The notes below the pieces were generated by a model. That model made no database searches and was not told the origin of the DNA. It saw only the letters and a program-made list of their open reading frames with translations. This document shows positions 28,276 through 63,893 of a stretch of 64,000 bases of DNA, in pieces; position 1 is the first letter of the stretch, and every line of letters starts with the position of its first letter. The DNA lies in assembly GCA_963920765.1 (NCBI GenBank), contig OY987246.1, positions 19,650,868 to 19,714,867 of the forward strand, written 5' to 3'. This stretch comes from Ulota crispa (Eukaryota; Streptophyta; Bryopsida; Orthotrichales; Orthotrichaceae). The translations under genes and the position numbers were made by a program.

Positions 28276-29213
28276 TTAACTCCTAAAGGACCAACTATCC
28301 TCTCGGGGGATAGTTGGGATTTTGGGCATGTACTTACAACTAAACTACTTTGTATGATTTTTTGAAACTTTTATGGAAGATGAGGAATTTAAAAACCTAT
28401 GTGGGCAACTAATTTTTTCTTCATTCCAACATTTATTGAAGAAGTTGTGCATGAAATTTTGAAAAACAAGGGAGATTGGGCAGCCAAAAGCTCTTTTTAA
28501 AATACCATTTTTTCAAAATAAAAATCTGAAATTGGTTCTTTAGATTTGTACACTTTTGGAGAGCTTTGAATCACCCAATTTCAATTTGTGGGTGAAAAGT
28601 ACTTTGCGGGCAAGTATGGAACTCCCCTACCTCCATTCCTTTTGCCTTAAGTGCTTTACTTTTTTGTGCTCTTTGTGAATTTGTTTTTTGACTTCTTTTT
28701 TTTCCTTGTTGTAGTAGATTAAGATTCCTTGATTTTTACCATTTGGATAAAAGTAATTCACATTTCTCAATGTTACATAAATCCTCCAATTTTGCCTAGT
28801 GTATATGCAAATTTGACTACCTTACAGCATAGCAGGATTTTACAAAGTATGATTCATACCTCCAATTCATTTGAAATTTCTCCCACATATATCTAACTTG
28901 GTTTTCTACTTGGGAAAAATAAACCTCAAATTTGCATAGAGCAATTTTTTTGATTTAGAGGCAATCAAAGGCTTCTGAGATTTTTGGGCAGCACGGAAAG
29001 TAACTTTTTTTTTCACTTCAAAAGTCAATATCTCACTCCTCTACATCTAAAATGAGCTGATTTTTTTTCACAAGTACCTCCCATAGTTTAGGGCAAGATC
29101 TTACAATTGGATTTCCAAACATAATTGTTTTCCTACCTTTGTACTCATTCCCCCAAAAGCTACAGTTTTCAATAACTTTCACTGAAAAAAGGGCTTGGTC
29201 CTTTAGGGGTTAA
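28276..29213 (+). mobile_element. TTAA element, family A copy A2 (938 bp)
   Basis: TTAA at both borders; ends TCCTAAAGGACCA and (opposite strand) CCCCTAAAGGACCAAGCCC. A perfect 10-bp palindrome CCAACTATCC/GGATAGTTGG lies at 28291-28317. Its inner arms CTATCC/GGATAG differ from the TTGTCC/GGACAA of the copy at 43987, yet still pair. Confidence 0.92.
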
Positions 29214-29327
29214 ATTCAACTATGAGTTGACTTCACCGGACAAACCATGACCTCAATCGGACACTTTGAGCGTACAAGCGGACATGCAGACAAGCGGTCC
29301 AATGTAACAATCATGGTTGAAGGCCTA
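29214..29327 (-). repeat. Right arm of the 3.3-kb inverted-repeat structure
   Basis: Inverted counterpart of 25985-26094, directly beside the right TTAA of element A2. It runs on into a fragment of repeat T (to about 29400). Confidence 0.55.
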
Positions 29328-30087
29328 TGAAAAACAACATGTACAAATGGAGTACATTTGAGGAGGTGCACTATTTTAGAGCATGCATGGTTTATGAGCC
29401 TCATGCCTTAGTTGACAATTGGCAAATAGAAACTAGCATTAAGTAATGATGAGTTGTGAGTAAATGGTACTAATATTATGAACAAGCATTTATTTACTAG
29501 CATACGGACATTTGCTTTGAGATAGTTGGATGTGCATGGGTAATGCAATATTCAACTCTACAAAAAACTGGTAACTCACAACTAGTCTAAAATCTTACTT
29601 TGATGCACTATCATTTTGGTCTATTTTTTGAAATCAAAAAAAATAATCATCTTCAAGTTTCATCATTATGCTACTCTTTAATAATTTTGTGGGGTTTCAT
29701 GGCAATTTGTTGGGTTTCTAACACATGGTTGGAGGGTGTTTGGTGTTTCAAACTTGGGACGTCCTTTATTGCTTCAACTTCTGCCAAAATGTTCTAAAAG
29801 ATTTTGGATAAGAACATGGTTGGAGGGCACTTGGTGTTCTATATCTATAGCATTTTGTATTACTTCAACTTATACCAAAAAGTTTTATAAGGTTTTACAA
29901 GAGACCACAGATTCAACTGGGGAAATCCTCCCACTTAATAGTATAGAATATAGATGAATTCTTTTAAATTGTGCCCATATTTATAATTCTTTTGTGCTTT
30001 TGTGATCATATTTGTAAATTCCCATTTTTTTTGTACAGCATCTAGCACGTTAAAAATTTAAATCACATGATTAAACATATGTGTCTT

Positions 30088-30455
30088 GGTTGTCACGTTG
30101 GGCACACTACAAGGAAACATGGTCAAATCTACAAAAAAAAGTTGACAAAGATTGTGACCTAATCTACAGTGTATTGTAGATTAGGTCACAATCTTTGCCA
30201 ACTTTTTTCTGTAGATTTGACCATGTTTCCTTATAATAGCAAAATTTGACTATCACATAAGTCAAGCGGACGGACACATTGGACTTGGCAAGGTGGTTGT
30301 CCATGCTATAATTAGAATGCTAACATTAGGATGCAATTGCAAGGTTGCGTGTGTGCCCACATTTAAAAAATAAACAAATTCTTGAGTTTGTCCCTTAATT
30401 GATTGTGTTCACATCGGACAAACAAGCAATTTAGGTTTGGTCCAATGTGACAACC
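30088..30455. mobile_element. TIR element with GGTTGTCACGTTGG ends
   Basis: Inverted ends GGTTGTCACGTTGG / CCAATGTGACAACC about 370 bp apart, with a CACTA-type MITE nested at 30105-30238. Related ends occur at 25999 and 29310. No convincing target duplication. Confidence 0.5.
30105..30238. mobile_element. CACTA-type palindromic MITE (3-bp TSD GCA)
   Basis: 134 bp, almost a complete palindrome (arms of about 58 bp). The left end is CACTACAAGGAAAC; the right end CTTATAATA equals CTTGTAGTG after three G-to-A changes. Flanked by GCA at 30102-30104 and 30239-30241. Confidence 0.85.
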
Positions 30456-30923
30456 ATATTGTTTGCCTCTCATATAATCAAACTCCAATACTTAAATTTT
30501 AGATTTGTAAACCACACGGTTATAACTTTCAAAAAAATACCAAAAAAGCAAAGTAATGAATCAGCTATCAAAACTAAACAAGAACTTTGGAGATTTTCGT
30601 TTTCTATGTGATTTTTTATAGATGTTCAACTTTACAACTTGCATGAAAAATTGAAAATCGGGTTTTTTTTTGTCTTAAAAGTTCATTCAAGAAATCGTTC
30701 CAGATTTATTGGGATTATCTTGCTTCATCCATGCTTTTAGAAGAAGAAATATTAAGCAAGTGTCTCGAAATATTGTAAAAGGTATTTTAGAATGTTTATA
30801 AAGAGTTGGATTTTTTAATAAATCCTCATTGCCAAATTGTACACCCGAAAGGTGAATTTTCCCTTTGTTGGAAAGGATTAGGACATAAAATATATTTCTA
30901 AGGCCATTATGTGTAGCATGTCT

Positions 30924-31157
30924 TTAACTCTTAAACGATCATAGGGCATAGTATATATTTTGACGTATAATTGTCATTTGCTACTAATAAGAAATTTAAA
31001 TTTGGGATCTCAAATAGTCCATTAGAACCGCATTGATCTATTCTTCAACTTATTAGTTGGTCTCAAATGTAGTGGAGGTGTGGATTCATTCCAAATACAA
31101 GAAAAATATCCTGTATTGTATTGGTTGTAAAGGGCCTTTTGGTTGTTTAAGGGTTAA
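30924..31157 (+). mobile_element. TTAA element, family B copy B1 (234 bp)
   Basis: TTAA at both borders; left end CTCTTAAACGATCATAGGGC, right end (opposite strand) CCCTTAAACAACCA. Same length as B2 (33915-34148) and alignable throughout. A short palindrome AAAGG-CCCTTT lies inside the right end. Confidence 0.85.
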
Positions 31158-31292
31158 AAATTAGGGTCATGTATATTATAGTAAGAGGACAAATGAGTGG
31201 GTTCTACAAAAGATGATGTCATCCCACAATTTTGATTAATTTGTAGTACAATATTGTATAGGACAGAAATTGTAATGGTTTTAAATGCATTA

Positions 31293-32547
31293 GGGCATCT
31301 CCTTCGGTGGCTCAAACTTGCTCAAAGTGGATGAAAAGTGTTGAGGCCCCTCTCAAAACCCTCTTAACCCCTAAAAGCCCATTGTCCCCTTGGGGAACAA
31401 ATGGGACTTTGGGCAAGTACCTATGGCTAAACTACTTTGTGTGATTCTCTAAAAAATTTATTGAAAATGGTGAATTATAAGATCTGCGTGGGAATCTAAT
31501 TATTTCTTCATTCTGACAAGTATTGAAGAAATTATGCATGAATAACTGAAAAACAAGGGAGAATCGAGCAGCAAAAAAAATTGCAACTTTTTTAAATAAA
31601 ATTTTGAAATTATTTTGATAAATTTCTATTTATTTGGGAAGCTTTGAATCATTCAATTTTGATAGATGAGATGAAAGTTATGAGAAGTTTTAGTTTGCGG
31701 GTAGGTATGGGACTCCCAAACCTCCATTCCTTTTCCCCCTTGTAAAACTTGTTGCTTTATTTATTTGATCTCTTTGTGTATTTGTTTTTTGACTTTTTTT
31801 TGCCAGTTTTAGTAGACTAAGATTCCTTGGTTTTCACCCTTTGGATCAAAGTAATTTGGGTTTTTGAATTTTGCATAAATCCTCCAATTTTGCCTAGTGT
31901 ATATGCAAATTTCATGACCTTACAGCATTGCAAGATTTTACAAAGTATGATCCACACCTCCATTTCATTTGAAAGTTCTCCCACATATACCTAACTTGGT
32001 CTTCTACATGGGAAAAATAAACCTCAACTTTGAGTAGAGCAATTTTTTTGATATAGGAGCCGTCAAAGGCTTCTGAAATTTCTGGGCAGCAGTGAAAAAA
32101 CTATTTTTTTCACTTCTTATGTGAATATCTCACTCCTCACCATCTAGAATGAGCTAATTTTTTTTCCATAAGTACCTACCATTATCTAGGGCAAGATCTT
32201 ATGGTTGGATTTCTAAAAAGAAATAAAACTATATTTCTCCTCACTCCTCCAAAAGTGGCAGTTTTGAGTGATTTTCACAAAAAAGGGCTTGGGCCTTTAG
32301 GGGTTAAACACTTTGGTCTAGCAAGTCTAGCAAGCCACTCTTCAAGCCATTATTCATTCACTATTCACCATAAGGTTAGTGAGCTTTATCCTCTACTTTC
32401 TTTGATAAGTGGTCAATTGCTTATTTATGGGGCGTGTTGGAGTGTCATGCCACCTTTTCAAAGAGCATGGGTGAAGATCAAAGAGCTTGAGACCTTGCTA
32501 AAACAGATGAAAAACTTTGAAAGAGCTCGGACCAGTGGAGATGCCCT
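31293..32547 (+). mobile_element. PIF/Harbinger-like element W, copy 1 (TSD TTA)
   Basis: The ends GGGCATCTCCTTCGGTGG and CCAGTGGAGATGCCC are flanked by TTA at 31290-31292 and 32548-32550. It is interrupted by A3 (31364-32307), leaving about 0.3 kb of its own sequence. It aligns with the inverted copy 61698-62814. A 158-codon frame across 32201-32677 spans the A3/W junction and is not a gene. Confidence 0.75.
31364..32307 (+). mobile_element. TTAA element, family A copy A3 (944 bp)
   Basis: TTAA at both borders; ends CCCCTAAAAGCCCA and (opposite strand) CCCCTAAAGGCCCAAGCCC. The palindrome TTGTCCCC-TTG-GGGAACAA (one mismatch) lies at 31382-31400. Inserted in W copy 1. The uninterrupted site is visible in W copy 2. 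Confidence 0.92.
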
Positions 32548-33907
32548 TACATCATTATTTACAGTATTCAATTGTCCCTTCACCGTTCACCTGACAGGCA
32601 CCTGGGTCTGTAAAACAAAATCAAGGACCCTTCAATCTAGTAAGCTTTGGGTTTCAATAAGTCCTTTGCAAGTATAGGAGGAATTTGGAGTCCTCATCTG
32701 TAATCTTTAGTATAAGTCTTCCCCAATTTAAGAGTTCACTATTTTCCTCAAGAATATAACTTTGGTGTTCACAAATCATTTGCACATGAAGTAATAAAAT
32801 TGTATCCAAAAATCAATTAGAGATGAAAAAACAAACCCCAGAATTGTTGAATTCTCACGCTTTTCTTTGGCTGCAACTCTAATGCATTACTTATTATACC
32901 TTAGTAGCACGGAGTTGCCTTGTGTTAGTAGAGCCATTGCAAAGTCTCATCTATCAAAATTTTAAAATGTGTCTCATAATATTTGCTGTAAAAAACGTTG
33001 GGGTAATGCAAAATTGCACTAATATCCAAAAATGTGGAGATATATAATAAAGTATATTTCAAGGGAACAAAGATTTTTAGTAACTGCTTTCTCAAAACTT
33101 GTGAATTAGGACTAATGAACTGTACTTAAGGTAGGCGCAGCCATAAGCGTGGAAATTTGGGTTTTGAAGTAGGTAAAACAATCTACTAACTTTGAAAAAA
33201 ATACTGTAAGTTAGGAAATGGAAATCAAAGATATTGGCATCAATTTCAAGTTTTCAATTGCAAGCATTTGTTCACAAAGATTTTTTGAAGTCTAAATCAC
33301 TGAAATTGTAGGAACCATGTGTAAAAGATGCTAAAAGCAAGGCTTGTTGGTTCTTAAATAGTGAGATGTGTACTCAAAACCGTCATGGAGTCACCCACAA
33401 CCATCACTTTGTCACCCATAAATATCACTTAAGTACCCATAACCCCCCTAACTTTGTCAGTGACGCCCATGGGGACATCACGCCCATGGGTGTGGCTACC
33501 TTATGTTGGATCTACCATTGTAGTAACAAAAACTTTTTATAAAAGATGAATCATGAGATTAATTCCGATATAAATTTGATTACAAATTGAATTATAGTAA
33601 TTTTCATGCATTTTTCTTCCAATGATTTACAAAAATCAAAAATTTCTACCCATTATAATACACTGGTACCTATCATTTTTTGCTTACCTAATTAGTGAGG
33701 GTAGTTTTTTGAACTTGTGTAGCTAGGTTTTGTGATGAGGGATGTTGGCACTCTTAAAATCTTGTAGAACAATGAAAAGGGTGACTTTTCAATATTCATT
33801 TAGTAAAGCAATAATTATGTAGCTGAGCCCTGTAAAAAAGCACACTAGCCATTTAGTGCAGATAAATACAAGATCAATTTGAAATGAGTTGCTTGGGCCA
33901 TTCAAGG

Positions 33908-34379
33908 TTAACCCTTAACCCTTAAATGACAATAGGGCATAGTATATACATTACCATATAATTGGTATTTGTTAACAATAAGAAGTTTTGATTTGGGATC
34001 TCAAGTAGTCTACTACAACCACTTTGATCTATTTTTCAACTTCTTTGTTGACTTCAAATGCAGTAAAGGTGTGAATCTATTCCAAAGACAAGAAAAACAC
34101 TTTGTATTCTATTGGTCGCAGCCGCATGCTCTGTCCTTTAGGGGTTAAACAACCAAGCAACCATAGGACATAGTATGTACATTGCTATATAACTAGCATT
34201 TGCTACCAACAAAAAGTTTTAATTTGGGATCTTGACTACCTCACTAGAACAACATTGATCTATATTCCAACTTCCTTGTTGATCTCAAATGTAATAAAGG
34301 TGTGGATGTATTCCAAATACAAGAAAAATACATCATATTGTATTGCTTATTACGGGCTGCTTGGTCCTTTAGGAGTTAA
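33908..34379 (+). mobile_element. TTAA element, family B copy B3, split by B2
   Basis: The left border TTAACCC (33908-33914) continues at TTAAACAACCAAGC (34145) after the inserted copy B2, restoring the terminal repeat TTAACCCTTAAACAACC. The right end is CTTGGTCCTTTAGGAGTTAA. Own length is about 240 bp, like the other B copies. Confidence 0.85.
33915..34148 (+). mobile_element. TTAA element, family B copy B2 (234 bp), inside the terminal repeat of B3
   Basis: TTAA at both borders; ends CCCTTAAATGACAATAGGGC and (opposite strand) CCCCTAAAGGACAG. Its target was the TTAA that occurs within the CCCTTAAA end of B3. Confidence 0.88.
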
Positions 34380-34418
34380 ACTATATACAACTTAGATATA
34401 TATAGCATAAAGAGGGCC

Positions 34419-35320
34419 TTGAACCCCTAAATGCCCAAGGTACCAAATTTTGATGTTCAAAAAACTTTAGGAAACTTTAAACCCCGGTTGAAGGAAAGAT
34501 TGACCATTTCAAGGTTTTTTTTGGAGAAGTTGCGGGCATAAGTTAGCCTTAGCATTCAATCTTAATGTCCTCCCTGCCTTATTCCAATTGTTTTTGGTGG
34601 AAGCTAAATTGCAAGGATACCTCTTGGTCACCAAATAGTGTGATGAATAGTGTCATTATAAAGCCTATGACAAGCTGCCACATTGAACAAACAGACATCA
34701 AGTTGAGAATAAAGTGAAGGTTTCTCTTAGGCACTACCCTTAGCAATGAGGGCCCTTTTACTAAAATTCCATCATCTAACAAGATCTAAATGTGTTGTTG
34801 CCCTAATTTCACTTGGAATGTTTTTGTTATACAAATTAGAAATCATTTGCCCTTGGATTTTCTTTCATTCATAATTATTTTTGGTCAATAATTAGAGCTG
34901 AACATTTTCTTTATATTAGGTGGTAGCTCTTTAACAGTTGCATTGCATGCTCATTTGTAAAACTGTGATCATGAATTTGGAAGGGGGATCATTAGTTTTG
35001 TAGTAACAACAACAAATTCTAAACCATCATAGGTGATTTTTTCCCATTTTTGTACACAAAAATTGCCATTTTGCATTAGAAGTTTGGGGTGGCTAATAAA
35101 AAAACCAAAAAATTCCATACTCATCCACATTCAATCACAAAGATTTTAAAATCTGCTTGGCCCTCTTTGGAGACTTTTTTGGTAGCATCATCTAAAAATC
35201 TTGAAGTTCAAGATCCTGCATCTACAATGATGTTCAATGATGATCATACAAAAACAATTTAAAAACTCCAAAATTGCCTTCCAAAAACAAGAAAAACACC
35301 CTTGGGCATTTAGGGGTTAA
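34419..35320. mobile_element. TTAA element, family F (902 bp)
   Basis: The inverted ends CCCCTAAATGCCCAAGG match perfectly over 17 bp. The right border is TTAA and the left border TTGA, one substitution away. Non-coding. A single copy in the window. Confidence 0.88.
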
Positions 35321-37294
35321 GTAGAAACCTAAGTTGCACATTTCAAGATTTGCACATTCAAGCATGTAAACAAGGAGATTTCACTTTCAATATCATGAAG
35401 TTTCTTCAAATAAACAAACAATTTTTTGTTGTGCATTAAGAGAGGAATTCAAAGAGCCTAAAACTTCGACTTTCAAACTGTATGTGCATGTAGTACTGTT
35501 CACTATTTTGAATAATTTTAACACAATTTACACCTAAAATCTATTGTTAATAAAAATTGCAGTTTTCCTGCCAAAATCACAACAATTTGTGATTCTCAAC
35601 ATTTGTGCGAATTACGGTGGTGAAGTCATGGGAGACAATGGAAGTCATAAGCAAATAGAGGCTGCCGCTTCACTCTTTTTATTCACTCTTTAGCTTATGA
35701 AAATTGTTTGACATATTTAGTTATACTTTAAAATAGGTATTGACATGCACTGTAATACTTCAAACATACGGAATATGTCATATGTATGTATGTATATAGG
35801 CCCGTGGGTGTATATGTATCTACCTACATGCATGTTTTTTAATATTTGAGATTGTCATTCAGAAAACATGAAATTCCTAAAAGAATATGGCATCCATTGA
35901 TTGAGGTACATTTGGATAGTGATAGCCACTCACTAGTATATTTTGATCTTAAAATTTTAGATTAAAATAAACACACAAATTCTCAAGGAGTCTACAAGCA
36001 TAAAATGTAGAAAGTATTTGAAAGACAGTATAGGGTGAATTTTATTGTTTAAATTTAAAACTCAGAAATTGTATAGATTTATGATGAGGTAATTATAATA
36101 ATTTTGGGTCAAAATAAATATTGCAAGCTATCTTTATTCAACACAACAATAAAATAGATAATTTAGGATGGATTTGAATGCAAAAGATGTATATACACAA
36201 GGTTTAATGAAGTACCCTTGTCTTGCATTGAGGTACTTTAAATTCTGAAAGAGTAATATTTCTAAGTGTAAATTAAAAATATTTATCCACAACTCAAATA
36301 AGCAAGCAAATGAGTAAGTAAATGATTGAAGCAGTTTAGTATGTATTTCCGTGCATTGTAAGAAAATTAATAAAAAAGAGCGCACTATAAAATAGTGTCA
36401 CAAAGGACAATTTTGCATCTTTAGTAAAAGACAGTCAAATTTTGTGTCACTACAAAATACATTGTAATTAATATAAAAGCATATTTTCATTCACATTATC
36501 CATTGACATAATTAAAAATATCTAAACATGTTCATTATTGCACAATCAGATTCAAAGCACCACAGCCAAAATTGACATTTTCACAAATATGACATTTATT
36601 CAAGGCTTACTATATGAAATTTTTTACTCATTAATATTCCTATTAAACTTTGGCTAGATAATTTGCATGAAACATTTGCATATTCTACAAAGACTTCTGT
36701 AAATGTTTGTTATTTGCCAATGGATGCAATAGTTAAATGACTAAAAAATCTTTGTCAAGAAAAAGGTGTTCAATATGCTACTACTTTATGGCATTGACAT
36801 TATTACTTTAAAAGCATGTTCGATTAGCTTTTTCACGTAACAAACACAAACAGCTTTATACAACCTTTAAATTTTAAAATTACCTATGAATTTATAGCAG
36901 AGGTTTTTGAAGTAAATAAAAAGTCAAATTTGCAATCACGTGTGCAATTTTTTTTTACAAGTGCCTTCTACTCGAATTACTTTAGCAGAATTTCTTTTGT
37001 GCTTCATATGAAAAATGCTCTGTTTTTATTTGCAAAGCATTTTTTCAATCCATTATTGTTTTACATTTATCTATTCTTGAATTCTCATGCAATGAAGAAG
37101 TTTCATTTGATTTGCATTTCAAGAGATTGCTTCCTTATGCTAAGGCAAGGTAGGTATACCCATATCCAACTGTTCAAGGGTTTGGAATACCTCAAGGTCT
37201 CAAAAAATTCAAGAAAAAAACTATTGGGTTAGCCTTTCAACAAGCTATCATGGAACGTCATTTTTGTGGAAAAAGTATTGTACAATGTTTTATA

Positions 37295-37683
37295 TTAACC
37301 CCTAAATGTCCATGAGAACGATTATCATCCTTTGGCCCTGAAATAAAATTATGTACAACAAAAAAAAGTTGTTTTTCATCTATTTTTTTTTCAAAATGAC
37401 CTTAAACACATGATCCATCATAGAAGGCAAAAAATCATCTTATCAAATATGCACATATTTTTAGGTAACTCAAATTGTGAGAAAACTCAAAATCATGATG
37501 TTGGGTCCCAAGTTGCCCTTATTGCAATTTTCATGAGGTCGGCATGCACTATTGACTTTTGAAACTTTTAGAAGCAATACTATTGGTGCCCATCAACCAA
37601 AACATTGTTGAAGCTACAATAAAAGTACTATTGAACCTACAATGTGGGCAGGCCACGGCCACCCATTGGTCTTTAAGGGTTAA
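37295..37683 (+). mobile_element. TTAA element, family E copy E1 (389 bp)
   Basis: TTAA at both borders; ends CCCCTAAATGTCCATGAG and (opposite strand) CCCTTAAAGACCAA. A GC-rich palindrome (TGGGCAGGCC/GGCCACCCA, 37645-37665) ends 18 nt inside the right border. The unoccupied target is at 25442-25445 in repeat R copy 1. Confidence 0.93.
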
Positions 37684-37811
37684 AGGGCAAAGTTACAACT
37701 CATAAGACCCTAAAAGCAATTGTAGACTAACCTTGAAAATGCTTGGATGTGTTCCTATACATGTACTTGAAACCCAATCTCAACCCTCCCAAACTATCTC
37801 CTAAGTTGACA

Positions 37812-38090: not shown

Positions 38091-38206
38091 GTGGCAACTG
38101 GCTTGTGCAAGTGGCATTTTTTGCTCCATTTTGGATTCAAGAGTATGTGAAGAACACCTCAAATATAGAGTGCAACATTGGAAGGTGATTGGCAATGGGT
38201 ATGTCT

Positions 38207-39928
38207 ACCTCATCAACAAGCCATTGTTCAAAATCTTTTTATTTTTTATGACAAAGCTATATGTTTTTAAATATATGAAAGGATTTTGTTTTAACATTTA
38301 TAATTTAATATAAAAAATGTTGTAGCATTTTTATTTTATCTTCATAGACATCAATATCAAGAAATTATAGCATTTCGTCCAATATTATCTACTAGAAGAT
38401 AAAGTAGTACACGCGTTTATATTCATTTTGGGGGGTTTTTTTTTTTTCACATAGAAGTTTCTTTTTACTCAAAATTTCCAAAGTTTTTTTTGCTTCTTGT
38501 AGAACTCACGAACCTCATTCTAAACTAGGTTGATAAGTTTTTAATCAATTTTTAAAATTAAGTGCATGCGTAAAATGAGCTAAACTTCATAGCAAATTTT
38601 GGATTATGACAAACCATGATATTAAGAAAATACAATAAAGGTCATTGGACTATCATCAACTAGTCAAAGGATAAAAAAATCGTACCATGTAGATGTGTAT
38701 AAAGAAAAAGTTGGGGATTTTATTTTAAATGCATGAAAAATTACAATTGTCTATCTTTAAATACCATCTACTTGAATTCAAGTGTTAGGCACACAATTTC
38801 ATTTCAAAATAAATCTAAAAAGTCTGAATTCTTTTTGTTTAAACCCAATACATGTAAGCATTCATCTAAAGTGCATCTAAATTTAGTTTTTGAAATAATC
38901 AATTCAAAAACTTATCATATATACAGCCCAAATTTCAAATTGACTATTCAAACTCTTGTATTTTTAATATACATGTATTTTCTCATAGCTTTCCTACAAC
39001 CATAGTAATACATGAATTTTTATCCAAATAAAACTTAAGAAATTAATCAATTTAATTATAAAACCTCAATCATGTGTGTACATATTGCATATAGCATTCA
39101 AAAATCTATGTCAAATTATTGACTATATGACATTTTATACATGAAGAAGTAACCAGTTCAATTTTCATTTTTAAATTACCTAGTAGATCCAATAAAGATG
39201 TTTTGAAACAGGCAATGGAATTTTGGCTTGAAATTATCTAAGTTGCTATTTTCTATTCAATTTTGGCCATATTTGTTCAAGGCTTAAATATTTCAGAAAA
39301 AATGTTGTTTAGTACAATCCTCAAAAAAACTATTAATAGTTACTGCCTAGATTCACATAGCCTACTTCATAAAGTTGCTTTTAATATAAGTCTATCGAAG
39401 GAGAGTCAAATTTCTTATTTTCTTCCAAAATATCAACTAACTTTGAGAAATCAAAATTGGAATAGGCAGTACGTAGCCAAAATCAAAATGTTACACAAAA
39501 AAGCTTTGCTCTTGTCATCACTATTAACGTTTTGTAAAGGCTTCAGTGATGGTTTGAAAACCTCTCATTTTTAAATTATAAAATCTTCATGATTACCCAA
39601 CGCATTGTAGAATGAAAGTGTCCTTCCTTTGTGTTCAAGAATAATTCTAAAATGCAGTTATGAACATGCATTACAATTTATGGATATTATTTATTTAACC
39701 TTTTAAGCCAACAAATTCGGTTATTAAAGATTTGTTTTTGAAGTTTGTTGTGTTGTGTAAAGCTTTATAAATCTTAATAGTTTAAGATTCTTGATAATAT
39801 TAAAACTAAAATTTGAAAGTATTTAAAAAAAATCTTTAATGATTAAATGCTTATTTGATTGGTGATTGAATTTCAAATACAGCTCATTAAAATTGGTCAC
39901 TTGAATCAAAGGAGTTTTGAATAATGAC
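38207..39928. other. AT-rich intergenic stretch, no feature seen
   Basis: Short frames without domains only. No paired ends or tandem array recognised. Confidence 0.5.
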
Positions 39929-40283: not shown

Positions 40284-40369
40284 GTAAGAAGAGGTTCTAA
40301 AAGTGTGCATGTTCTAAAATGGTGCACCTTCTTAATTGTACTTTCTTTGTACATGTTGTTTTTCATAAC

Positions 40370-41841: not shown

Positions 41842-42090
41842 TTAACCCCTAAGCGCCCAGACTTGAAATGAAAAAAGTTTGATTTACTTGCAGTCAAAGT
41901 GTCCCTGTGGATTGAAAAATACAATCTACAAGATTGGAACCGTACTAATTGTTAATAGGAAGCATCTCTATCATGATGGGCTTGATTGGAGGTGGTTTCA
42001 CCAAAAGAGCAATGAGATTATCTTAATCAAACTTGCATTGACTTAGCTTTTGGAGAGACACTATAATGTCTATTGGGCCTCTGGAGTTAA
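41842..42090. mobile_element. TTAA element, family G copy 2 (249 bp)
   Basis: TTAA at both borders; left end CCCCTAAGCGCCCAG, right end (opposite strand) CTCCAGAGGCCCAA. Exactly the length of 23170-23418. The palindrome AGACA-CTATAA-TGTCT (42056-42071) stands where copy 1 has a different palindrome. Its right TTAA is also the left TTAA of 42087-42738. Confidence 0.9.
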
Positions 42091-42738
42091 CCCCTCAACA
42101 CCCTTGGAATTTTGGAATATCTCAAAATTTGCTTGAAAGTGAACAAAATGCTGGCATTTTGATCAATCTTATCAATTTCTTTTGAAATGTAACCGTACAA
42201 ATTTAAAGTAGACATGTTATAGATTGCATACAAAAAGAAATCACAACTATGTCACTTATGGATTGAAAAATTGTAATGTTTGATCATGAGGGTGTTAAAA
42301 CTGTGAAAGTGATTTGAAGTCTTTCAATCCTCTTTTTGCATCTCAAATCTAAAATTGAGGGTACCAAAAAAATATAAGTGTGTAAAGTATGACATGCATA
42401 ACCCCAATCAATTTATAGCTTCTCAAAATCTATTCTACAATTTTATTAAGTGAATTTTCAATGCAATTTTTTCTCCAAGTTCTAGTGTACTTGAGGCTCA
42501 TTTCCAAGAGCCTTTAATACTAAAAAGTGAAGATTTGCAATAGATACCCTTACACAAAATCTTGAATAGACAAATTATGTTAATTCATTTTCAAGATCAT
42601 ACTCATAATGCTGAAACTAGACTTCAACAACAATTTAAACATAACAATAACTACAAAAAAATCTTGAAAAAACTTTGGGAATCCTTGAACAAAATTCAGA
42701 GGGGCGGAATTTCAGCCCCTCTGGCGTTGAGGGGTTAA
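42087..42738. mobile_element. TTAA element, family H (652 bp)
   Basis: TTAA at both borders; ends CCCCTCAACACCCTTGG and (opposite strand) CCCCTCAACGCCAGAGG. A perfect 8-bp palindrome AGAGGGGC/GCCCCTCT (42698-42722, 9-nt loop) ends 16 nt inside the right border. Confidence 0.9.
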
Positions 42739-43896: not shown

Positions 43897-43990
43897 TTAA
43901 CCCTTAAATGTCAAGGCGGACGTTTTGCGTCCGCCTCGGATACACGGGGGGCCATGTATTCACGGTCACACCCCAGCATTTAAGGGTTAA
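43897..43990. mobile_element. Minimal TTAA element, family I (94 bp)
   Basis: TTAA at both borders; ends CCCTTAAATGTCAAGG and (opposite strand) CCCTTAAATGCTGGGG. Almost all of the interior is a perfect 9-bp GC-rich hairpin, AGGCGGACG-TTTTG-CGTCCGCCT (43914-43936), plus about 37 nt. Its right TTAA is the left TTAA of the next element. Confidence 0.85.
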
Positions 43991-44030
43991 CCCTTAAACG
44001 ATTGTTGTCCCTTGGGGGACAAATGGGATT

Positions 44031-44810: not shown

Positions 44811-46844
44811 TTAACCCCTAAAGGCCCAATTGTCCCCTTGAGGGACAAATGAACCTCAAGCATGTACCTATGACTAAACCAATTTTTATAATTTTTTTGA
44901 AACTTTTGAGGAAGTTGGGGAATTCAAATATCTGCAAGTATATATAATTTTTTCTTCATTCCAACATTTATTGAAGAAGTTATGCATGAATTTCTCAAAA
45001 ACAAAGGAGGGCAAGTATTCCACACAGCCAAAACTTTTTCAAAAATCGCATTTTCTTAAAATAAAAATCTGAAATTGGCTCATTAGATTTGTATATATAT
45101 GGGAAGCTTTTAATCATTCAGTTTCAATTTATGAGTGAGAAGTTTTTGTTTGCTAGTGGGTCTCGGGGAGGTCACTCTATGTATATTTTGAGTACCCCGT
45201 GTGGCGAGGGGTCTTTTTGGGGGGCTATTTATCTTGCAGGCCAGAATTAAAGGATCCTTATAATGACTTATAATTGGCAAAATGGCTTATTTGATGGAAC
45301 TCTACCATTACTTATACTTTCTATTTCAATGTAATTTATTCTAGGCTATATTCTTTATAAAGAAAAACCTAGAATTGAAAAACAAGTTGAAAGGAGAAAA
45401 ATTAGACAAAGAAGTACAGAATTCTTTTTTACTTCCTAAAGTCTTGAAGCTACCAATTTTAATTTGAAGAAATTGGACATTGAATTGCCAAAAAAAAAGT
45501 TTGACCCAACTGTGCACCTAATTGTACAGTGCCCTCCAATAAGTCCTCATACACCTTGTTTTGCCAGTCAAAGAACTTTTCTAATACAAAACATAATTTC
45601 CATTTTTTTTGTTTTTAATCATAGAAATTTGATCCTTATGCAATCTCAATCAAGCATGTCAAATTTTGATTCCTCAAAACCAAAACCCTATTTTTGGTGA
45701 ATTGTTTTGTATTAAATTCATGGTTTTACATGATAATTGGTTGGAAAATGTTAGTGATGAATTCTTGAAATTGGATTCCATGGATATGTAGGAAACATCT
45801 ACACACACATCTTCTATGCTGAAAAGGACCCCTTAAGTAACAAAAATTTGATCTAAATATATTTCAATGGGATTTGTGATATATTCAAATTTTGTTAAAT
45901 AGATATTTCTCTAAGATATTCAAATTTTGCTATTTGGTTCATACATTGTGACTAAGTTTGTACCTTTGCACATGATGTTATGTTTACCGGGTGAAAAACT
46001 AGTTAAAAGCTAGTTAAAAAATAAACAAAGAGCAAGAGGACTCGGTTTCAAAAAACTTGAGGACTTGTTGGAGGCCACTGTACACACATGCTATAGCAAA
46101 TTTAGTCAAGAGGATCCAATATATGGCAAACTAAATTATATGTACAAAATATTAATGACCCACATTTGAAGGCTACATAAATTACTTATAAATTTTTTGG
46201 CTTTTAATGGCCTCTATCTTATTTTAAGCTTTTTGTAAATTTTACCCAAAAAGAATAGAAGGCTATCTATATTCTGCCACACGTTGTTTCTAAAATGTGG
46301 TAAGTTTCCTCCCCAAGTGGTAGGTATGGGACTCCCAAACTTCCATTCCTTTTGCCCTTTGTTAAATTTGGTGATTCGATTCTTTTTTAATTTTCATTCT
46401 AGGTTGTAGTAGACTAAGATTCCTTGGTTTTCACCACTTGCATCAAAGTATTCAGATTTCTGAATTTTACATAAATCTTCCAATTTTACCTAGTGTATGT
46501 GCAAGTTTCATGGTCTTTTGGCATTGCAAAATTTTACAACATACAATTTACACCTCCAATTCATTTGAAAATTCTCCCACAATTACCTAACTTGGTCTTC
46601 AAAATGGAAAAGATAAACCTCAACTTTGAGTAGAGAAATTTTTTTGATGTAGGAGAGGTCTAACCGTCAAAGGCTTTTGAAATTTTTGGGCAGCAAGCAC
46701 AAGTACCTCCCATAGTCTAGGGCAGGATCCTATTGTTGAATTTATTGAAAGAAAACAAATTTTCTACTTTTCTATTCATTGCCCTAGAAGTAGAAGTTTT
46801 CAATGACTATCACAAAAAAAAAGGCTTGGACCTTTAGAGGTTAA
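44811..46844 (+). mobile_element. TTAA element, family A copy A5, nested in A4 and itself interrupted
   Basis: TTAA at both borders; ends CCCCTAAAGGCCCA and (opposite strand) CCTCTAAAGGTCCAAGCC. The palindrome TTGTCCC-CTTGA-GGGACAA lies at 44829-44847. About 1.16 kb of foreign sequence occupies 45160-46315. Removing the element restores the CTCATTAATTGAAATTG site of the A4 arm. Confidence 0.9.
45160..46315. mobile_element. Unclassified insertion inside A5 (about 1.16 kb)
   Basis: It replaces the continuity seen in A1-A3 between TTTGCGGG and TAGGTATGGG. The ends GTCTCGGGGAGG and (opposite strand) TTGGGGAGG are weakly inverted. AGTGG occurs on both sides (45155-45159, 46316-46320), a possible 5-bp duplication. 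Its central part (45620-45990) is related to the palindrome 60617-61490. No domain seen in its short frames. Confidence 0.6.
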
Positions 46845-46885: not shown

Positions 46886-47604
46886 TTAACCCCTAAAGGA
46901 CCATTGTCCCTTCGGAGGACATTTGGGATTTTAGGCATGTACCTATGGCTAAACTACTTTGCGGGATTTTTTGAAACTTTTATTGAAGGTGGGGAATTCA
47001 AAGACCTACAAGGGCATCTAAATTTTTCTTCATTCTGACATTTAGTGAAGAAGTTAAATATGAAATTTTGGAAAAAGATGATCAAGGGGCAACCAAAAGC
47101 TTTCCCAAAAATTGCATTTTTTTCAAACAAAAATCTAAAATAGGTTCTTTAGACTTATATAGACGTGGGGAGCTTTGAATCATTCAATTCTGATTTATGA
47201 GGTAAAAGTTATGAGAAGTTTTAGTTTGCGGGTAGGTGTAATTTTGAGAGAAACCACACCTATCCACAAACTAAAACTTCTCATAACTTTCACCTCATAA
47301 ATTAGGAATGATTCAAAGCTCCCCACGTCTATATAAGTCTAAAGAACCTATTTCATATTTTTATTTGAAAAAAATGCAATTTTTGAAAAAGCTTTTGGCT
47401 GCCCCTTGATTCTCATTTTCTAGATTTTCATTTTAAACTTCTTCACTAAATGTCAGAATGAAGAAAAAATTAGATGCCCACATAGGTCTTGGAGTTCTCC
47501 AACTTTCAAAAAAAATCAGAAAATCAAGCAAAGTAGTTTGGCCATAGGTACTTGCCAAAATCCCATTAGTACTCAAAAAGGGCCCACAATCCATTAGGGG
47601 TTAA
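46886..47604. mobile_element. TTAA foldback element A6 (719 bp), nested in A4
   Basis: TTAA at both borders; ends CCCCTAAAGGACCATTG and (opposite strand) CCCCTAATGGATTG. Two arms of about 330 bp, each the left half of family A, meet near 47245. The left arm has the palindrome TGTCC-CTTCGGA-GGACA. Removal restores the GGTTTTTTAAATTTACAC stretch of the A4 arm. Confidence 0.92.
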
Positions 47605-47864
47605 AAAACCAATTTTAGATTTTTAATTCAGAAAAATGCAATTTTTAAAGAAGTATTTGGGGCTGCCTGCCCTCTTCGTTTTCTAGATATTCATTTTTAA
47701 CTTCTTCAATAAATGTCATAATGAAGAAAAAATTAAATGCCCATGCAAATTTTTGAAGTCCCCATCTTCCATAAAAATTTTAGAAAATCACACAAAGTAA
47801 TTTACTTGTACGTGCCCGAAATCCCATTTGTCCTCCAAGGGATCAATGGTCCTTTAGGGGTTAA

Positions 47865-52348: not shown

Positions 52349-52380
<32 letters not shown>

Positions 52381-55317: not shown

Positions 55318-55865
55318 TTAACCCCTACAGGTTCAAGTGGGTAAGGGCAAAACATAAACGTGTTATAAAATGGTACTTTTGTAACTTTGATGAAGTTTGC
55401 TTCAAAAGAAAAAATCAAAATCATAATGTTTAGTAAGTATCCGTATGGTCAAATACTCAAAAAAAGTTTTGGATTTTTATGTAATGAATTTAGAAGCATT
55501 TACCATTTAAAAATTCACCAAAATTACAAATTTTATTGATAGATTTCAAATTTTGATATGATTGGTTAAAATCAAACATCCTATCCTAAACTTCAAAAAT
55601 GCAATTCTTTGAAAGGAGAGAACATCATTAGTTTCCTGAAATAATAAATTTTACAACACTAGTAAATATTGAAGTGTTTGCCTTTGAAAAATTATCCTTG
55701 GTGGAATTCAACTTAAATTGGCATGATTCAAGTTAAGTTGGAAAGAAGACTTGGTTTTCTATTACAAAAAAAAAAAACTAAAATTCAAAAAGTTTTTTTT
55801 GTCTCAGGCAGCCCAAAAAAACAAGCGGCAACCACAAAATGGTCAATTGGGTGCGTAGGGGTTAA
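55318..55865. mobile_element. TTAA element, family J (548 bp)
   Basis: TTAA at both borders; ends CCCCTACAGGTTCAAGTGGG and (opposite strand) CCCCTACGCACCCAATTG. A weak palindrome ACCA-CAAAA-TGGT (55831-55843) lies inside the right end. Only copy in the window. Confidence 0.82.
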
Positions 55866-56238
55866 TCTTCTCACTAAAAAGAAATATGCATGGCATCTAA
55901 ATTTTATTTTTTGGTTCCAAGCATTCCTTTTTGCAAAATAATCAAATAAGGACTGTACCTAAGCAATTTGCATCTACATTATTTCTCCTAGTTGTTTCCA
56001 CAAGTGTTGTCTCAAAAACTTCTGTCAATGCACATGGATGAAAATTCTAATGAGGAGTGTCTTGAGGAGGACATTGATTAGATATTTAGAATTTGAAAAA
56101 TGGTGCTGTGAATGGTGAGAATATTCCTTGAGTTGCTGAGAGGAAAATGTTTATATTGAGTAGATTTAAAACAAGATTGGAAAAGTAGGCAGCAATGGTT
56201 TATGCTTCTTTGACCTGATGGTGGACTCTGTAGTGGTA

Positions 56239-57095
56239 TTAACCCTTAAAGTTCAATGCATCCAAAAAGTGGATGCGCCTTGGTCAACCTTGATTGTAAC
56301 TTTTGAAATATCAAATTTTGGTATGTGGTTCAAGCTATGAAAATGAAGCTTGATCATTTTTCTTGTTATCCCATATAATTTTTTTGAAAAATGTCAAAAA
56401 TCAAAAGAATTATTGCCATTGAAAGCTCCAAGTGCTAGAATCAAAATAATACAATATGATGTGTTTTTCATTCATATTTTCTACTCTTTGTATTCATTTT
56501 AAATTTTAAACTACAAAACCATGCTTCTCATTCTACCATTTATTTATGGTAGAAATCATAGATTTCTTTAATATGTATTCTGATTGATATGATTTTATTT
56601 CCACATTTAGCTTTAAAAAGTCACAATAATTCAAAATTTTCATCAAATTCATCAAAAAAGAAAAAGAAAAATAATGTGTCTTCCAGCAAAATATCAAAAT
56701 TTTATAAATTAACCAAATATAAGGACAAACTTGGTTTGATAGTCAAATTTGACTTTAAATTCTTTGTTGTGGTTGTTTTGGGTGTAAAAAACAAAATAGC
56801 CAATTGAAATTTTTTCACACTAATCTTTAATGCTATTTGTACCTCTTCAAAAAAATTCAAGTAATTTGGATTTTTTTTGCTATTTTAACTTATTTATGTT
56901 TGGTTTTTGAAAAAGAAATCATAACAATTACAATTTTTCATGAAAACAAATTGAAATTTCTTGTAGTGATATATCATTCATAGTTTCAAACAATAAAAAT
57001 ATAAAATTATTGTTTGAACACACCTCAAAAAGAAAAATTGAGCTTAAACATGAGGTTTAACCATTTCAAAATGGATCAAGTCCTTTAGGGGTTAA
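56239..57095. mobile_element. TTAA element, family K (857 bp)
   Basis: TTAA at both borders; ends CCCTTAAAGTTCAATG and (opposite strand) CCCCTAAAGGACTTGATC. Palindromes occur near both ends: GCATCC-AAAAAGT-GGATGC (56258-56276) and CCATTT-CA-AAATGG (57061-57074). Confidence 0.87.
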
Positions 57096-58820: not shown

Positions 58821-58823
58821 CTC

Positions 58824-59737
58824 ATAACCCTTTAGGGCAGCCTGCTTTCCGAGCTGGTCGTTTTTTTGGAAAAATTAATTGTTTTAGGTATTTTGGCAAT
58901 TCAATTAGATGTAAAAAGTACAATTCAACTATACCAATGTAAACTGCTTTCTTGGAAGATAAGCATGTAAAATTTTTTGGACCTATTTGCTTATGATATG
59001 TGCAGCATTGGTTAAGTGAAAGGTGGTGCATTGGATTAAGTTTGGATTGTACAAGTTGAATGAATGGCTCCTACAAGCAACTACAGTAGAATTAGATTTT
59101 GAAATTGTGCACTTTTCTCATGTGTGATATGTTGAAGGGCTTGAACTTAAGATTTTGGGAAAAAGTTGTACCATTTGTTGTATTCAATGAAGGAAAGGCA
59201 TGGGTGGTTAGGGTGCAGAAATTGTGGAAAGGACCATGAAATTTTGATCATTTTTAGAAAAATAAGATTTGCATGGTTAGAAAATCCAACCGGGCAAGTT
59301 ATTTGAATAGTATTAATCTACAACCATGTGTTCCAAAAGAAGTGTGATAGTATATAAGTAATTTTGACCGTGCAACGCTAAAAGGATTGAAAAGCTCAAG
59401 TAGGGGGTATAAAGCCAAAGAACAATTGGTTTGGTTGTTGTCGTGGCACTATTTACTTGGTCCCTAAAGACATCAAGTGATGTCATCCTCTTGTTGGTGT
59501 TTTAGTGAGTGATTTGTACTAAACACTCAAATTTTCCAATACCCCTTCTGATGAATCACTCTCTCTACAACAGGATGTAATTCCAAACTTTGATCAAACA
59601 AGTGCAAGTGAAAATAGACTTCATTCCTTACATGTTTGTAATTGGTCAACCCATGATCCAAAATTGGCAATACAACGTAAATTTCATTTCAAAACCTACA
59701 AAGGCAGTTTTTGCCTCCTCTGGCCCTAAGGGATTAA
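58824..59737. mobile_element. TTAA element, family M (about 914 bp)
   Basis: Right border TTAA, left border ATAA; ends CCCTTTAGGGCAGCCTG and (opposite strand) TCCCTTAGGGCCAGAGG. The palindrome AGGCA-GTTTT-TGCCT (59702-59716) lies inside the right end. Its right TTAA is also the left TTAA of the next element. The left end is the less certain one. Confidence 0.65.
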
Positions 59738-59970
59738 TCCTTGAGCGCCCAGAGTTATTTTAGGATTTAGGAGAAAATGGGGGGTTTGATGGCCACCACA
59801 TCCTGGAAAATTACATTTAGAAAAAGTGACCGTAGGATTTGAAAAAGGACGACCTTCTCTATTGATGGGGGCCAGCCATGACTGTTTTCACCGTACAAAT
59901 TAAGAGAAAAATAAGATAAAGTTGTGGGCCCCAACAACAAGATCCTGTTGCTCGGGCGCTTAAGGATTAA
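59734..59970. mobile_element. TTAA element, family L (237 bp)
   Basis: TTAA at both borders; ends TCCTTGAGCGCCCAGAG and (opposite strand) TCCTTAAGCGCCCGAG. The palindrome CAACA-AGATCC-TGTTG (59935-59950) lies inside the right end. Confidence 0.87.
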
Positions 59971-60616
59971 TGAAAGAAGCGTTTTTATTGCATCAGTACT
60001 GTTGAGGAGTGTTGTTGGACTATTAGGGTGTTAAATATGTGCAAAGAATTGTGGATTGCTTGAATGAGAGATACTTTGACAAACAATGCCATTTTATGAG
60101 AGTGAAACGATGAATATGAGCAATAATTTTGGATTCTATGAGCATGAACCAATTTTAAGCTCAAAATTAATTAAAAAACTAAAAAAACACAATTTCTACA
60201 AAAGATGATAGTTTAAATTGCACAATTGTAAGGCCCTATGTACACAGTTATAGGCAAAATTATAAATTTTGATAAAACATCATGGCTCACGGCTCCCGGA
60301 TCTCTGCTCACAAAACAACAATCCCTGTACCGTACTTTGACCTCCATGTACTTGGTGCATAAGTTCTTTAGCCTGATTGCTTCTTGTAAATGATCATGAA
60401 AGAACCTTATGTTTAGAGTAGTGGTTAGAAAGATATTGTGACAAGTTTGAGCTTTTTAAAGTAAAGCTCAACTACTGCCTAGGTGAATATCTAGCTAAGG
60501 GATAGCTTCTGAGGAAGATGGATAGATTTTGAGGAAGATAGCATTCAAATAATTTTTGTGGGAAACATGGGATTTTGCAAGCGCAACTCTAGAGTGATTT
60601 CTGAATCAGATAAGGT

Positions 60617-61490
60617 TGTACAGTACCAATTAGTATTGATAGGTAGAACATGTTTTGGCATTCTAAAGAAGTTTGTATAGCAAAAAATGTAAAGGTTATT
60701 TTACTCTCATATTTTTGAAATATGATTCTCATGCAATCCCAATTGACCATACCAAATCTTGGTTACTAAAAATCAAAATCCTATTTTTGGTAAGTTGTCT
60801 TGTGTCAATATCACGGTTTTACAAGAAAGTTGATTAAAACACATTGGTGATGAATTTTTGAGATTTGATTGCATAGATAGGTAAGAGACATCCATACGCA
60901 CATCTTTCCTTTTAACAAACATATTCAAAAAGTTTAAAATCTTGTCAATAGAGGTTCAAATGCTCAAGTGATCATGACCAAATTTAGTAAGATAAATATC
61001 TCCATTTTGTAATTAGCTTTTGGCAAAATAAACATATCATCATGTTCAAAGGTATAGATTTAATCATAATGTATGATTCAAATAGCACAATTTAATTACC
61101 ATGAAGAATTATCTATTTTACTAAATTTGGTCATGAACACTTGAGCATTTGAACCTCTATTGACAAAATTTTAAACTTTTTGAATATGTTTGTTAAAAGG
61201 AAAGATGTGCATATGGATGTCTCTTACCTATCTATGCAATCAAATCTCAAAAATTCATCACCAATGTGTTTTAATCAACTTTCTTGTAAAACCGTGATAT
61301 TGACACAAAACAACTTACCAAAAATAGGATTTTGGTTTTTAGTAACCAAGATTTGATATGATCACTTGAAATTGCATGAGAGTCATATATCAAAAATATG
61401 AGAGTAAAATAACCTTTCCATTTTTTGTTATACAAACTTCTTTAGAATGCCAAAATAGGTTCTACCTATCAATATTACCTGGTATTGTAC
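60617..61490. mobile_element. Large palindrome, family S foldback (about 874 bp)
   Basis: Arms of about 390 bp (outer ends GTACAGTACC... and ...GGTATTGTAC) flank about 65 bp of spacer near 61030-61095. One arm is related to 45620-45990. No target duplication was evident, so whether it is a mobile element is inference from the duplicated relative. Confidence 0.65.
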
Positions 61491-61697
61491 AGTACATGCC
61501 TCTAAAAAGGTGGTGATAATGTTAATTAGTACAACAACGTGAGAGGAAATGTCCTAAATAATAAATGGACAAAAAACCACTTGTATTTTTTTGCAATTGG
61601 AGAGTTTCCATGCACGAATGTGCATGACTTGTGCAAATATTTGTATAATTAACATTGATTGAAATGATGTCATTTGTTTGTGTGGTGAAATACGATA

Positions 61698-62814
61698 GCA
61701 TCTCCACCGGTTTGGATCATTTCAAAGTTTTATTTCCATTTTTTAGAAGGCCTTCAAACTACTTGATCTTCACCCATGCTCTTCAAAAAGGTGGTCTTGC
61801 ACTCTAACAAGCCCCATAAAAAATCATTTGACCACTTATCAAGGAAAACAGAGGATAAAGTTCACTAAACTTAACCCTTGAGCCCCCACAATTGAATTGA
61901 GAGAATGAGGCTAGAGGACCATGCTTGAAAATATTGTACGCCCCCGTTTGGGAAATTAGATAGGGGAGGACTCATTGCTGAAATAACAAAAAGGATGCTT
62001 GATGCACCCATCCAAAAAGATGTAAGACTTTTGTCCGCACCATTTTGGAGATTATAATAGTCAAATATAGTTGACTATGTGGCAACCGGCCAATTAGGGG
62101 GGTCCGTGGATGTGGACACAAAAATTCATGCCTCAAAGGAGGCTCTTTTTGATGAAATTTGGGCAATGGGTGCAATTTACAAGTATCTTGTTTGTAGTCA
62201 AATTTGGTGATGTTTTGACACCAAGGTGCTATTTGAGAGGCCCAAAGTTGCAAGGCTCACACAACATGGTGGACGATAGACGGAGGACAAGTATGGTTTT
62301 GGCTTCCACAAGGGCACGGCTCCTGGTGGTACATTTTGCAAAACACTTCTCCAGTATGAGGCATGTGTGCCAAAATATCCCTAACGGTATGGAACCAGCC
62401 ATATTTGGTGGTCTCTATCCTTGTGCCCAAACCCTAAATTGCACAAAATGAGATTATGGCGTACTATTGCCACATTGGACTTATACAATTTGCGTTTGTA
62501 CAAGTGGTGAAACTCCCATCACCCACTATGTAGCATGAGAGTAGTACCATAGGTTAAAGCAAGTACAGTTTTCAAGGCAGTACAATTTTGGTTTGGACCT
62601 TGTTTTCAAGAAACTTTGATTTTGGGAGGTCACATTCTGGCATGTGGGGCGTTCAGGGATTAAAATGAATAATGCTAAATAGTGTCTTGACGTTGAAGGG
62701 CCCTTGCTAGACATGGGCTTGAAACGGTAAGACACATTGTCTTTAGAGAGTTTTGAGAGGGCCCGCAACACTTTTCATCCACTTTGAGCATGTTTGAGTC
62801 ACTGGTAGAGATGC
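61698..62814 (-). mobile_element. PIF/Harbinger-like element W, copy 2 (inverted), interrupted by N
   Basis: Aligns, reversed, with 31293-32547 outside their respective TTAA insertions. The ends GCATCTCCACCGG and GGTAGAGATGC are slightly eroded and no target duplication remains. Confidence 0.7.
61871..62663. mobile_element. TTAA element, family N (793 bp), inserted in W copy 2
   Basis: TTAA at both borders; ends CCCTTGAGCCCCCACAATTG and (opposite strand) TCCCTGAACGCCCCACATG. Palindromes CAATT-G-AATTG (61889-61899) and CACAT-TCTGGC-ATGTG (62631-62646). W copy 1 lacks it at the corresponding place. The 113-codon frame inside (62110-62451) shows no domain. Confidence 0.88.
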
Positions 62815-62922
62815 TTTGAAGGATCCAAAATCCCATCCACTTTGGTAACACTTTTTGTAACCTTTTCAACACAATTTGAGTGACTTTGAATCTATGTATT
62901 GCAATCCGTCTATTCTCGTTTG

Positions 62923-63893
62923 TTAATCCCTAAAGGACCAAGCAGCCCTTTACAACCAGTACAATTTGGGGTATTTTTCTTGTATTTGGAGTGCATCCAC
63001 ACCTTTATTACATTTGAGATCAACAAAGAAGTTAGAATATAGATCAATGATGTTCTAGTGAGGTAGTCAAGATCCCAAATTAAAACTTTTTATTTGTAGC
63101 AAATGCTAGTTATACAACACTATACATATTGTGTATTATGGTAGCTTGGTCCTTTAACCCTTAAATGTTGAAGTAGCCATTTTGTGGCTTTTAGATGACT
63201 GAAAAGTGCTCTACATTGGAATTACACTATTTGTCATCCAAGATTATGTTGGGATATGAAGAATGCAATCTAGAGCATGTAGATAGATAGCTTTTGCATG
63301 TACAATGTTCATAAAAGGGTCTCACTTTGCCAACTAAGTGGTAAAGATGCACCACCATGTAGTGTATTTTGAATTTTAAGAATCTTTTTACCAAAACTTC
63401 ATATGAGTTATTGAAATGATGTGTTTTTAGTTTGAGCATAATTAGCATTAGAAAGTTTACCAAATTTAGTTTCTCCTTGTACTTTAAAATTTTGAAATTT
63501 TTTAAGTTTTGAAATTTTTATAACTGTCACAAGTTGAGTACCTATTACCATGGAATGGTTACTTTTTTTATATTTACCAACATGAGAAGAAAAATTCCAT
63601 CATGATGATCTTCATCATGATTCGCACCTATGATAAAAAAAATTGGTATAATTGGATACATTTTATAATTAGTATGAATTTCTTTAGTATTTGCTTCAAA
63701 ATATTACAATAATTTCAAATTTTCACCAAAATTTATGAATATTTTTTATAAATGTAATATGATCATACCTTCTTCTACTAAAATTATAATATTGAATTTT
63801 AATGTTGATTACATTACCAAAATAACTTCTAGAAGATGGTTGCAATTCCATAGAAAATCCATGGTTATAGGCCCGTCTTTTAAGGATTAAGGG
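62923..63893 (-). mobile_element. TTAA element, family B copy B4, split by D
   Basis: Left border TTAA with end TCCCTAAAGGACCAAGCAGC. The body aligns in reverse with B1-B3 up to GGTCC (63153). The family's last bases reappear as GGG after the inserted element (63891-63893), but the outer TTAA is lost. Confidence 0.75.
63154..63890. mobile_element. TTAA element, family D (737 bp), inside the terminal repeat of B4
   Basis: TTAA at both borders; ends CCCTTAAATGTTGAAG and (opposite strand) TCCTTAAAAGACGGGCC. The palindrome AGCCA-TTTTG-TGGCT (63175-63189) lies inside the left end. The target was a TTAA within the end of B4. Confidence 0.82.

Follow-up and report, generated by a model that had tools for sequence, protein, structure and literature searches.

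Subterminal palindromes are known from transposons that insert at TTAA. In the solved piggyBac complex, a dimer of the transposase's cysteine-rich domain (CRD) binds the palindrome at base pairs (bp) 17-33 of one end and bends the DNA by approximately 40 degrees; the minor groove narrows around bp 25, above an A-tract that spans bp 22-25 (PMC7351741). The palindrome of piggyBat, which has an A/T-rich centre and is confined to the left end, is unrelated in sequence to that of piggyBac and goes with a CRD of a different fold (PMC11707139), the bend being centred at approximately bp 25 (PMC13405395). Between these two transposons, the axis is thus already known to stay in place while the letters change. 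Human piggyBac-like elements are reported to have short subterminal inverted repeats in common, one of which was lost through substitutions in MER75B (PMC12324416); CRDs are known to be diverse (PMC8086355), and plants are among the organisms from which the superfamily has been isolated (PMC10813416). Here we describe a stretch of 64,000 nucleotides (nt) from Ulota crispa (contig OY987246.1, positions 19,650,868 to 19,714,867, hereafter the window), which contains many TTAA-flanked elements with a common tip and, inside many of their ends, a short palindrome whose letters change from family to family and whose axis lies near bp 25.

The left end of piggyBac (Trichoplusia ni) resembles the present ends by its TTAA target, its axis at approximately bp 25 and its central A-tract (PMC7351741), whereas the same 19-bp repeat is reported on both of its ends at different distances and 11 of the 19 elements tabulated here are one-ended. 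In piggyBat (Myotis lucifugus), the left end P1LE presents, as here, a core motif inside the tip and then an imperfect palindrome with a bend near bp 25 (PMC11707139, PMC13405395), on one end only and with an A/T-rich centre; three such sites are described on its left end, whereas repeated sites were not established in the present elements, and the core motif, GCGGGA, differs from our tips. The human elements MER75, MER85 and Looper also carry short inverted repeats just inside the ends of TTAA elements (search settings of 5-15 nt with a spacer of 2-10), but at both ends according to the same preprint (PMC12324416). Coral CMITEs are similar in forming several small non-autonomous TTAA families with a CC[C/T]T tip and insertions at a TTAA inside another element, and differ in that the word "palindrome" is absent from the text of the paper (PMC2872659). 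The piggyBac, piggyBat and human reports contradict the statement, made in a preliminary description of the locus, that no such feature was known for TTAA elements. Among the titles listed by our literature searches for such elements from plants and algae, none described them as native to plants, and among those listed for the coevolution or compensatory change of such palindromes, none was on point.

Position and pairing of the dyad

The position of the palindromes was analysed on 41 selected TTAA ends carrying a CCCTTAAA/CCCCTAAA-like tip, with 951 TTAA ends as background. The selection used only the first nucleotides after the TTAA (a match of at least 7/8 to five consensus words, or a short regular expression) and its rule was devised after reading the sequence. 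A stem score of at least 5 at centres 23.5-25.0 was observed in 14/41 selected ends versus 36/951 background ends (Fisher P 1.4e-9), and a score of at least 7 in 8/41 versus 4/951. In the same ends, the remaining 48 two-bp bins gave 0-5 ends at the lower threshold and 0-2 at the higher; the dyad centres peak at 23.5-25.0. When positions 13-60 were shuffled 500 times, the mean was 1.14 and the maximum 5 for the lower threshold, and 0.08 and 2 for the higher. The passing ends are six copies of family A together with G1, H, I, both ends of K, M, P and the element at 63154. A looser set of 12 ends adds two, G2 (end 42087, minus strand) and the end at 39695, whose AT-rich dyad is probably due to chance.

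Over 15 hits (the 14 ends and G2), the dyad centre has a mean of 24.57 with a standard deviation (SD) of 0.56, a value truncated by the selection (the A3 and A5 centres were set at 24), versus an SD of 1.79 for the start of the outer arm, the arm extents being entered by hand. The axis thus appears to be fixed, unlike the length of the arms. All the arm pairs listed in the preliminary description were located, each starting 12-17 nt inside a TTAA, that of G1 falling outside the range given there. The fixed offset proposed in it holds for the dyad centre and not for the arm start, and family N is out of register with its centre at 21.5. A weak second excess was seen at centres 51.5-53.0 (score of at least 6 in 4/41 ends), near which the right-end repeat of piggyBac would presumably fall. 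It was set aside as a second palindrome position because 49 bins were examined and the four arm pairs are mutually unlike, and is probably due to chance.

An arm-exchange test, in which all 41 ends were anchored at the tip without selection for a dyad and their right arms swapped among ends, shows that the arms match their own partner. At centre 25.0, 91/205 cells were Watson-Crick pairs versus an exchanged mean of 55.7 (z 5.5), the observed value being reached in 0/2000 exchanges; after removal of 14 A and D duplicates (27 ends left), 59/135 versus 35.7 were counted (z 4.4, again 0/2000). Exchange of the right arms thus breaks the pairing, and these data support the proposal that what persists between families is the dyad and not its sequence.

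The arms are nevertheless not all foreign to one another. The element at 63154 and element Q both have CCATTTTGTGG at bp 20-30, with a paired change at bp 19/31 (G-C to A-T) and a broken pair at 18/32; the left end of K has CCA...TGG in the same places with T-A at 19/31, and CAACA is common to G1 and P at bp 17-21. Arms shared in register in this way indicate that the groups are not all unrelated. At the ends 63154, 55862 (minus strand) and 56239, the CCA...TGG arms stand in one register (bp 20-22 and 28-30) and the next pair out is G-C, A-T and T-A respectively, hinting at one lineage with a covarying position.

The pairing profile was averaged over nine groups, from rows chosen for the dyad, N and Q being dropped and the A3, A5 and A6 centres being set at 24 by hand. 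Pairing was 0.95, 0.89, 0.97, 0.93 and 0.89 at 3, 4, 5, 6 and 7 bp from the centre, approximately 0.6 at 8-9 bp and 0.36-0.44 at 1-2 bp. The A/T fraction, averaged over ten groups, reached 0.72-0.95 from positions -3 to +1 versus 0.20-0.52 at 4-8 bp. A run of at least 4 A/T inside bp 21-27 is present in 6/10 groups with Q, which is below the palindrome threshold, or 5/9 without it, versus 15% of 1008 TTAA ends; it is absent from G, H, P and A. In piggyBac the tip is CCCT and the arms lie 4-8 bp from the axis, their sequence being unlike that of the arms in these elements. Among the 19 tabulated elements, D3 and D4 included with their interrupted left ends, a palindrome above threshold was found at one end in 11 (G1, G2, A1-A5, H, I, P and 63154), at both ends in one (K) and at none in seven (D1-D4, L, Q and N).

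Within families, the evidence for covariation is weak. The two paired changes between A2 and A4, pointed out earlier, are real, but one-sided changes are commoner across the family: when five copies are counted against A4 (A7 and A8 left out), two paired changes, both in A2, stand against eight one-sided ones. When the eight A ends are aligned, four pairs changed on both sides, a number reached by only 5/500 shuffles and suggestive of some excess (covariation score 6/500, with lower values in slid controls); one of these pairs is a T-A to G-T change, which is no DNA pair, and one comes from the decayed copy A8. From G1 to G2, our alignment gives two paired changes (transversions), one restored and two broken pairs. 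Taken jointly, the four paired changes from these two counts (A copies against A4, and G1 to G2) have a simulated P of 0.004-0.03, or 0.10 with a higher divergence. One-sided decay in old copies could mask selection. The covariation anticipated in the preliminary description was recovered by exchange over the whole set (0/2000); by the criterion set there, an excess of paired over single changes, it was not recovered within families.

Tips, target sites and other contents of the window

Elements were delimited by tip-bearing TTAA ends paired by eye (Table 1). The pairings of A1, A2, A3, G1, G2, H, I, P, D1 and D2 are well supported, whereas the boundaries or pairing of K, A4, A5, L, Q, N and 63154-63890 are deduced from the tips. 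Among the copies, A2 and A3 share 77% identity over the whole length, G1 and G2 75% over 228 of 249 bases, and D1 and D2 80% over 202 bases. In A5/A6 (46886-47864), inverted internal arms at 46978-47185 and 47306-47513 are 88% alike, as if two copies stood head to head.

A TTAA is present at both ends of the paired elements, as the ends were sought by TTAA. D2 occupies the TTAA that forms part of D3's tip CCCTTAAA: with D2 removed, TTAACCCTTAA followed by ACAACC forms an uninterrupted tip, and this empty site with a single TTAA supports a 4-bp TTAA duplication. Some nested ends arise because the tip carries its own target site. Both 33908-34379 and 62923-63890 show an insertion at the TTAA inside another element's tip CCCTTAAA; in the latter, the tip invaded by 63154-63890 seems to belong to a D-family element that starts at 62923 and whose far-side outer TTAA is unrecognisable. 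The motif CC[C/T]T occurs within the first five bases in 36/41 ends and at base 1 in 11/41, figures favoured by the tip selection rule. At the right ends of the A elements (24335, 29210 and 32304), a stem-5 dyad, AAAGG...CCTTT, is centred at bp 14 and could be a by-product of the tip.

Table 1. Elements and palindromes located in the window. Positions are those of the window; centres are in bp from the TTAA end.
Feature	Coordinates	Strand	Remarks
Element A1	24335-25296	-	962 bp including both TTAA; shared tip; palindrome 25260-25276 at right end, stem 7, centre 25.0
Element A2	28276-29213	+	938 bp, TTAA-flanked; palindrome 28295-28313, CTATCC/GGATAG, centre 25
Element A3	31364-32307	+	944 bp; palindrome 31382-31400 imperfect, centred at 24, with a further scoring stem of 5 bp at 23.5
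Element A4	44811-46844	+	2,034 bp, exceeds other A copies, presumably interrupted; palindrome 44830-44848, centre 25; boundaries from tips
Element A5/A6	46886-47864		both ends of the left type and mutually facing; palindrome 46905-46921; A6, the copy on the right, has mismatches and scores below threshold
A7 palindrome	44005-44022	+	TTGTCCC/GGGACAA after TTAA 43987, centre 23.5; no partner end recognised
Element D1	30924-31157
Element D2	33915-34148		nested in D3
Element D3	33908-34379	+	D2 inserted at TTAA inside tip; no palindrome at bp 23-25.5
Element G1	23170-23418	+	249 bp; palindrome 23381-23400 at right end, centre 24.5
Element G2	41842-42090	+	249 bp; palindrome 42056-42071 at right end, centre 23.5
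Element H	42087-42738	+	652 bp; palindrome 42698-42722 at right end, centre 25
Element I	43897-43990	+	94 bp; palindrome 43914-43936, centre 25
Element K	56239-57095	+	857 bp; each end has a palindrome, 56258-56276 (centre 25) and 57061-57074 (centre 24.5), and their arms differ
Element L	37295-37683		from tips
M palindrome	59702-59716	-	AGGCA/TGCCT before TTAA 59734, centre 25; no partner end recognised
Element N	61871-62663		palindrome 62631-62646, centre 21.5
Element P	59734-59970	+	237 bp; palindrome 59935-59950 at right end, CAACA/TGTTG, centre 24.5
Element Q	55318-55865		from tips
Element at 63154	63154-63890	+	palindrome 63175-63189, AGCCA/TGGCT, centre 25, formerly ascribed to D; right boundary from tip

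Outside the elements, pieces of an ABC1 atypical kinase gene are found at 2000-3830 on the + strand, in different frames as if split by introns; this is the only Pfam family above cut-off in the scanned stretches. Besides it, six-frame Pfam scans of 44,811-46,844, 1-12,002 and 34,001-64,000 gave only matches below cut-off, and eight of the twelve open reading frames of at least 120 amino acids, searched against Pfam, gave only weak matches below it. No tRNA and no Rfam family at gathering scores were detected in the window, a megablast of 28,000-36,000 against plasmids returned no match, and an exact 32-base pattern of the A element was absent from viral contigs. Two long foldbacks are present, at 13107-13947 (arms of 399 nt, 94% complementary, centre of 43 nt) and at 60617-61491 (406 nt, 92%, 63 nt).

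A probable dimer site and its alternatives

A palindrome with its axis near bp 25 and an A/T-rich centre is what piggyBac- and piggyBat-type ends carry, a 4-bp TTAA target duplication is a mark of the superfamily, and all three were found here, the A/T-rich centre in most groups. On this comparison, the elements are most probably non-autonomous piggyBac-like copies whose palindromes serve as docking and bending sites for a CRD dimer. The transposase core would recognise the conserved tip (approximately bp 1-14), and the palindrome would most likely dock the CRD dimer of a piggyBac-like transposase encoded at another genomic locus, with bending of the DNA. Tip, TTAA target, axis position, own-arm matching and arm distance are observations, whereas the protein, its dimer and the bend are inferred. 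As a homodimer reads the same half-site twice, both arms would take the same change of preference; the letters would then change between families while the dyad, its centre and the arm distance stay, no hairpin being needed. A dimer site, one of the two explanations initially offered, appears as the best reading of the dyads. The feature is real, but of a known kind.

Several observations weigh against this reading. No palindrome above threshold is present in families D, L and Q, family D alone counting four copies, and these elements without an end above threshold (seven, N included), together with K, argue against a strict one-end rule; moreover the two palindromes of K differ, which is not predicted by one type of homodimer. 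The dyad centres of family A are G/C-rich. In the arm exchange, weaker own-arm excesses were obtained at centres 23.0, 23.5, 24.5 and 28.5, and none at 24.0 and 25.5; that at 28.5 (10/2000 and 43/2000) is unexplained. Finally, six-frame Pfam scans of 1-12,002 and 34,001-64,000 contain no transposase domain, DDE_Tnp_1_7 (PF13843) included, and none was found in 12,003-34,000, where only five of the nine long open reading frames were scanned against Pfam. The lack of a transposase in the scanned stretches is expected for non-autonomous copies.

Three other explanations could be considered. The first, which places the elements in a different TTAA-targeting superfamily and has the dyad read by another dimeric protein, appears rather improbable. 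TTAA targets are not unique to piggyBac, Kolobok and Sola being examples, and such an origin would agree with the lack of an identified transposase and with the small share of ends having CC[C/T]T at base 1. Against it, a CC[C/T]T terminal motif and a TTAA target are given as hallmarks of the piggyBac superfamily (PMC2872659), and both the dyad centre and the central A/T tract match those of piggyBac.

It is less probable still, and we consider it unlikely, that selection acts on the fold, with the dyads forming single-stranded hairpins or cruciforms during excision or replication. Folding is possible, as the arms pair on either side of a short unpaired centre, own-arm matching fits a fold as well as a dimer site, and a preprint states that hairpins or cruciforms could theoretically arise from the subterminal inverted repeats of the human elements (PMC12324416). 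The dyad centre nevertheless lies at a fixed distance from the tip, a register that a hairpin does not need, and the predicted DNA hairpin energies of 15 ends are widely spread, from -2.7 to -12.1 kcal/mol; besides, the known hairpin of piggyBac excision arises by attack four nt outside the transposon end and not at the palindrome (PMC7351741). The excision hairpin suggested in the preliminary description is disfavoured on these grounds. The third explanation, accidental palindromes spotted by eye among many repeats, has in its favour that six of the 14 passing ends are copies of family A and that some background ends (36/951) pass the same threshold; it is extremely improbable given the excess at a score of at least 7, far above the shuffled values, and an arm exchange that never reaches the observed pairing, even without the A and D duplicates.

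If the palindromes are indeed CRD-dimer sites, their positional signature (axis near bp 25, arms 3-7 bp off and usually an A/T centre) could serve to identify piggyBac-like non-autonomous elements without a transposase gene, and a single locus that holds several families with unlike arms would constitute a natural data set on the evolution of CRD DNA preference. As a tentative extension, which we regard as possible rather than probable, the families may have repeatedly switched the sequence of their CRD-dimer palindrome within one genome, with the axis, the half-site distance and the tip kept fixed, the palindromes of the related G1 and G2 being already different. Were this true, the palindrome would act as a rapidly evolving key by which families are sorted as transposase CRDs diverge, each switch being recorded in the paired changes.

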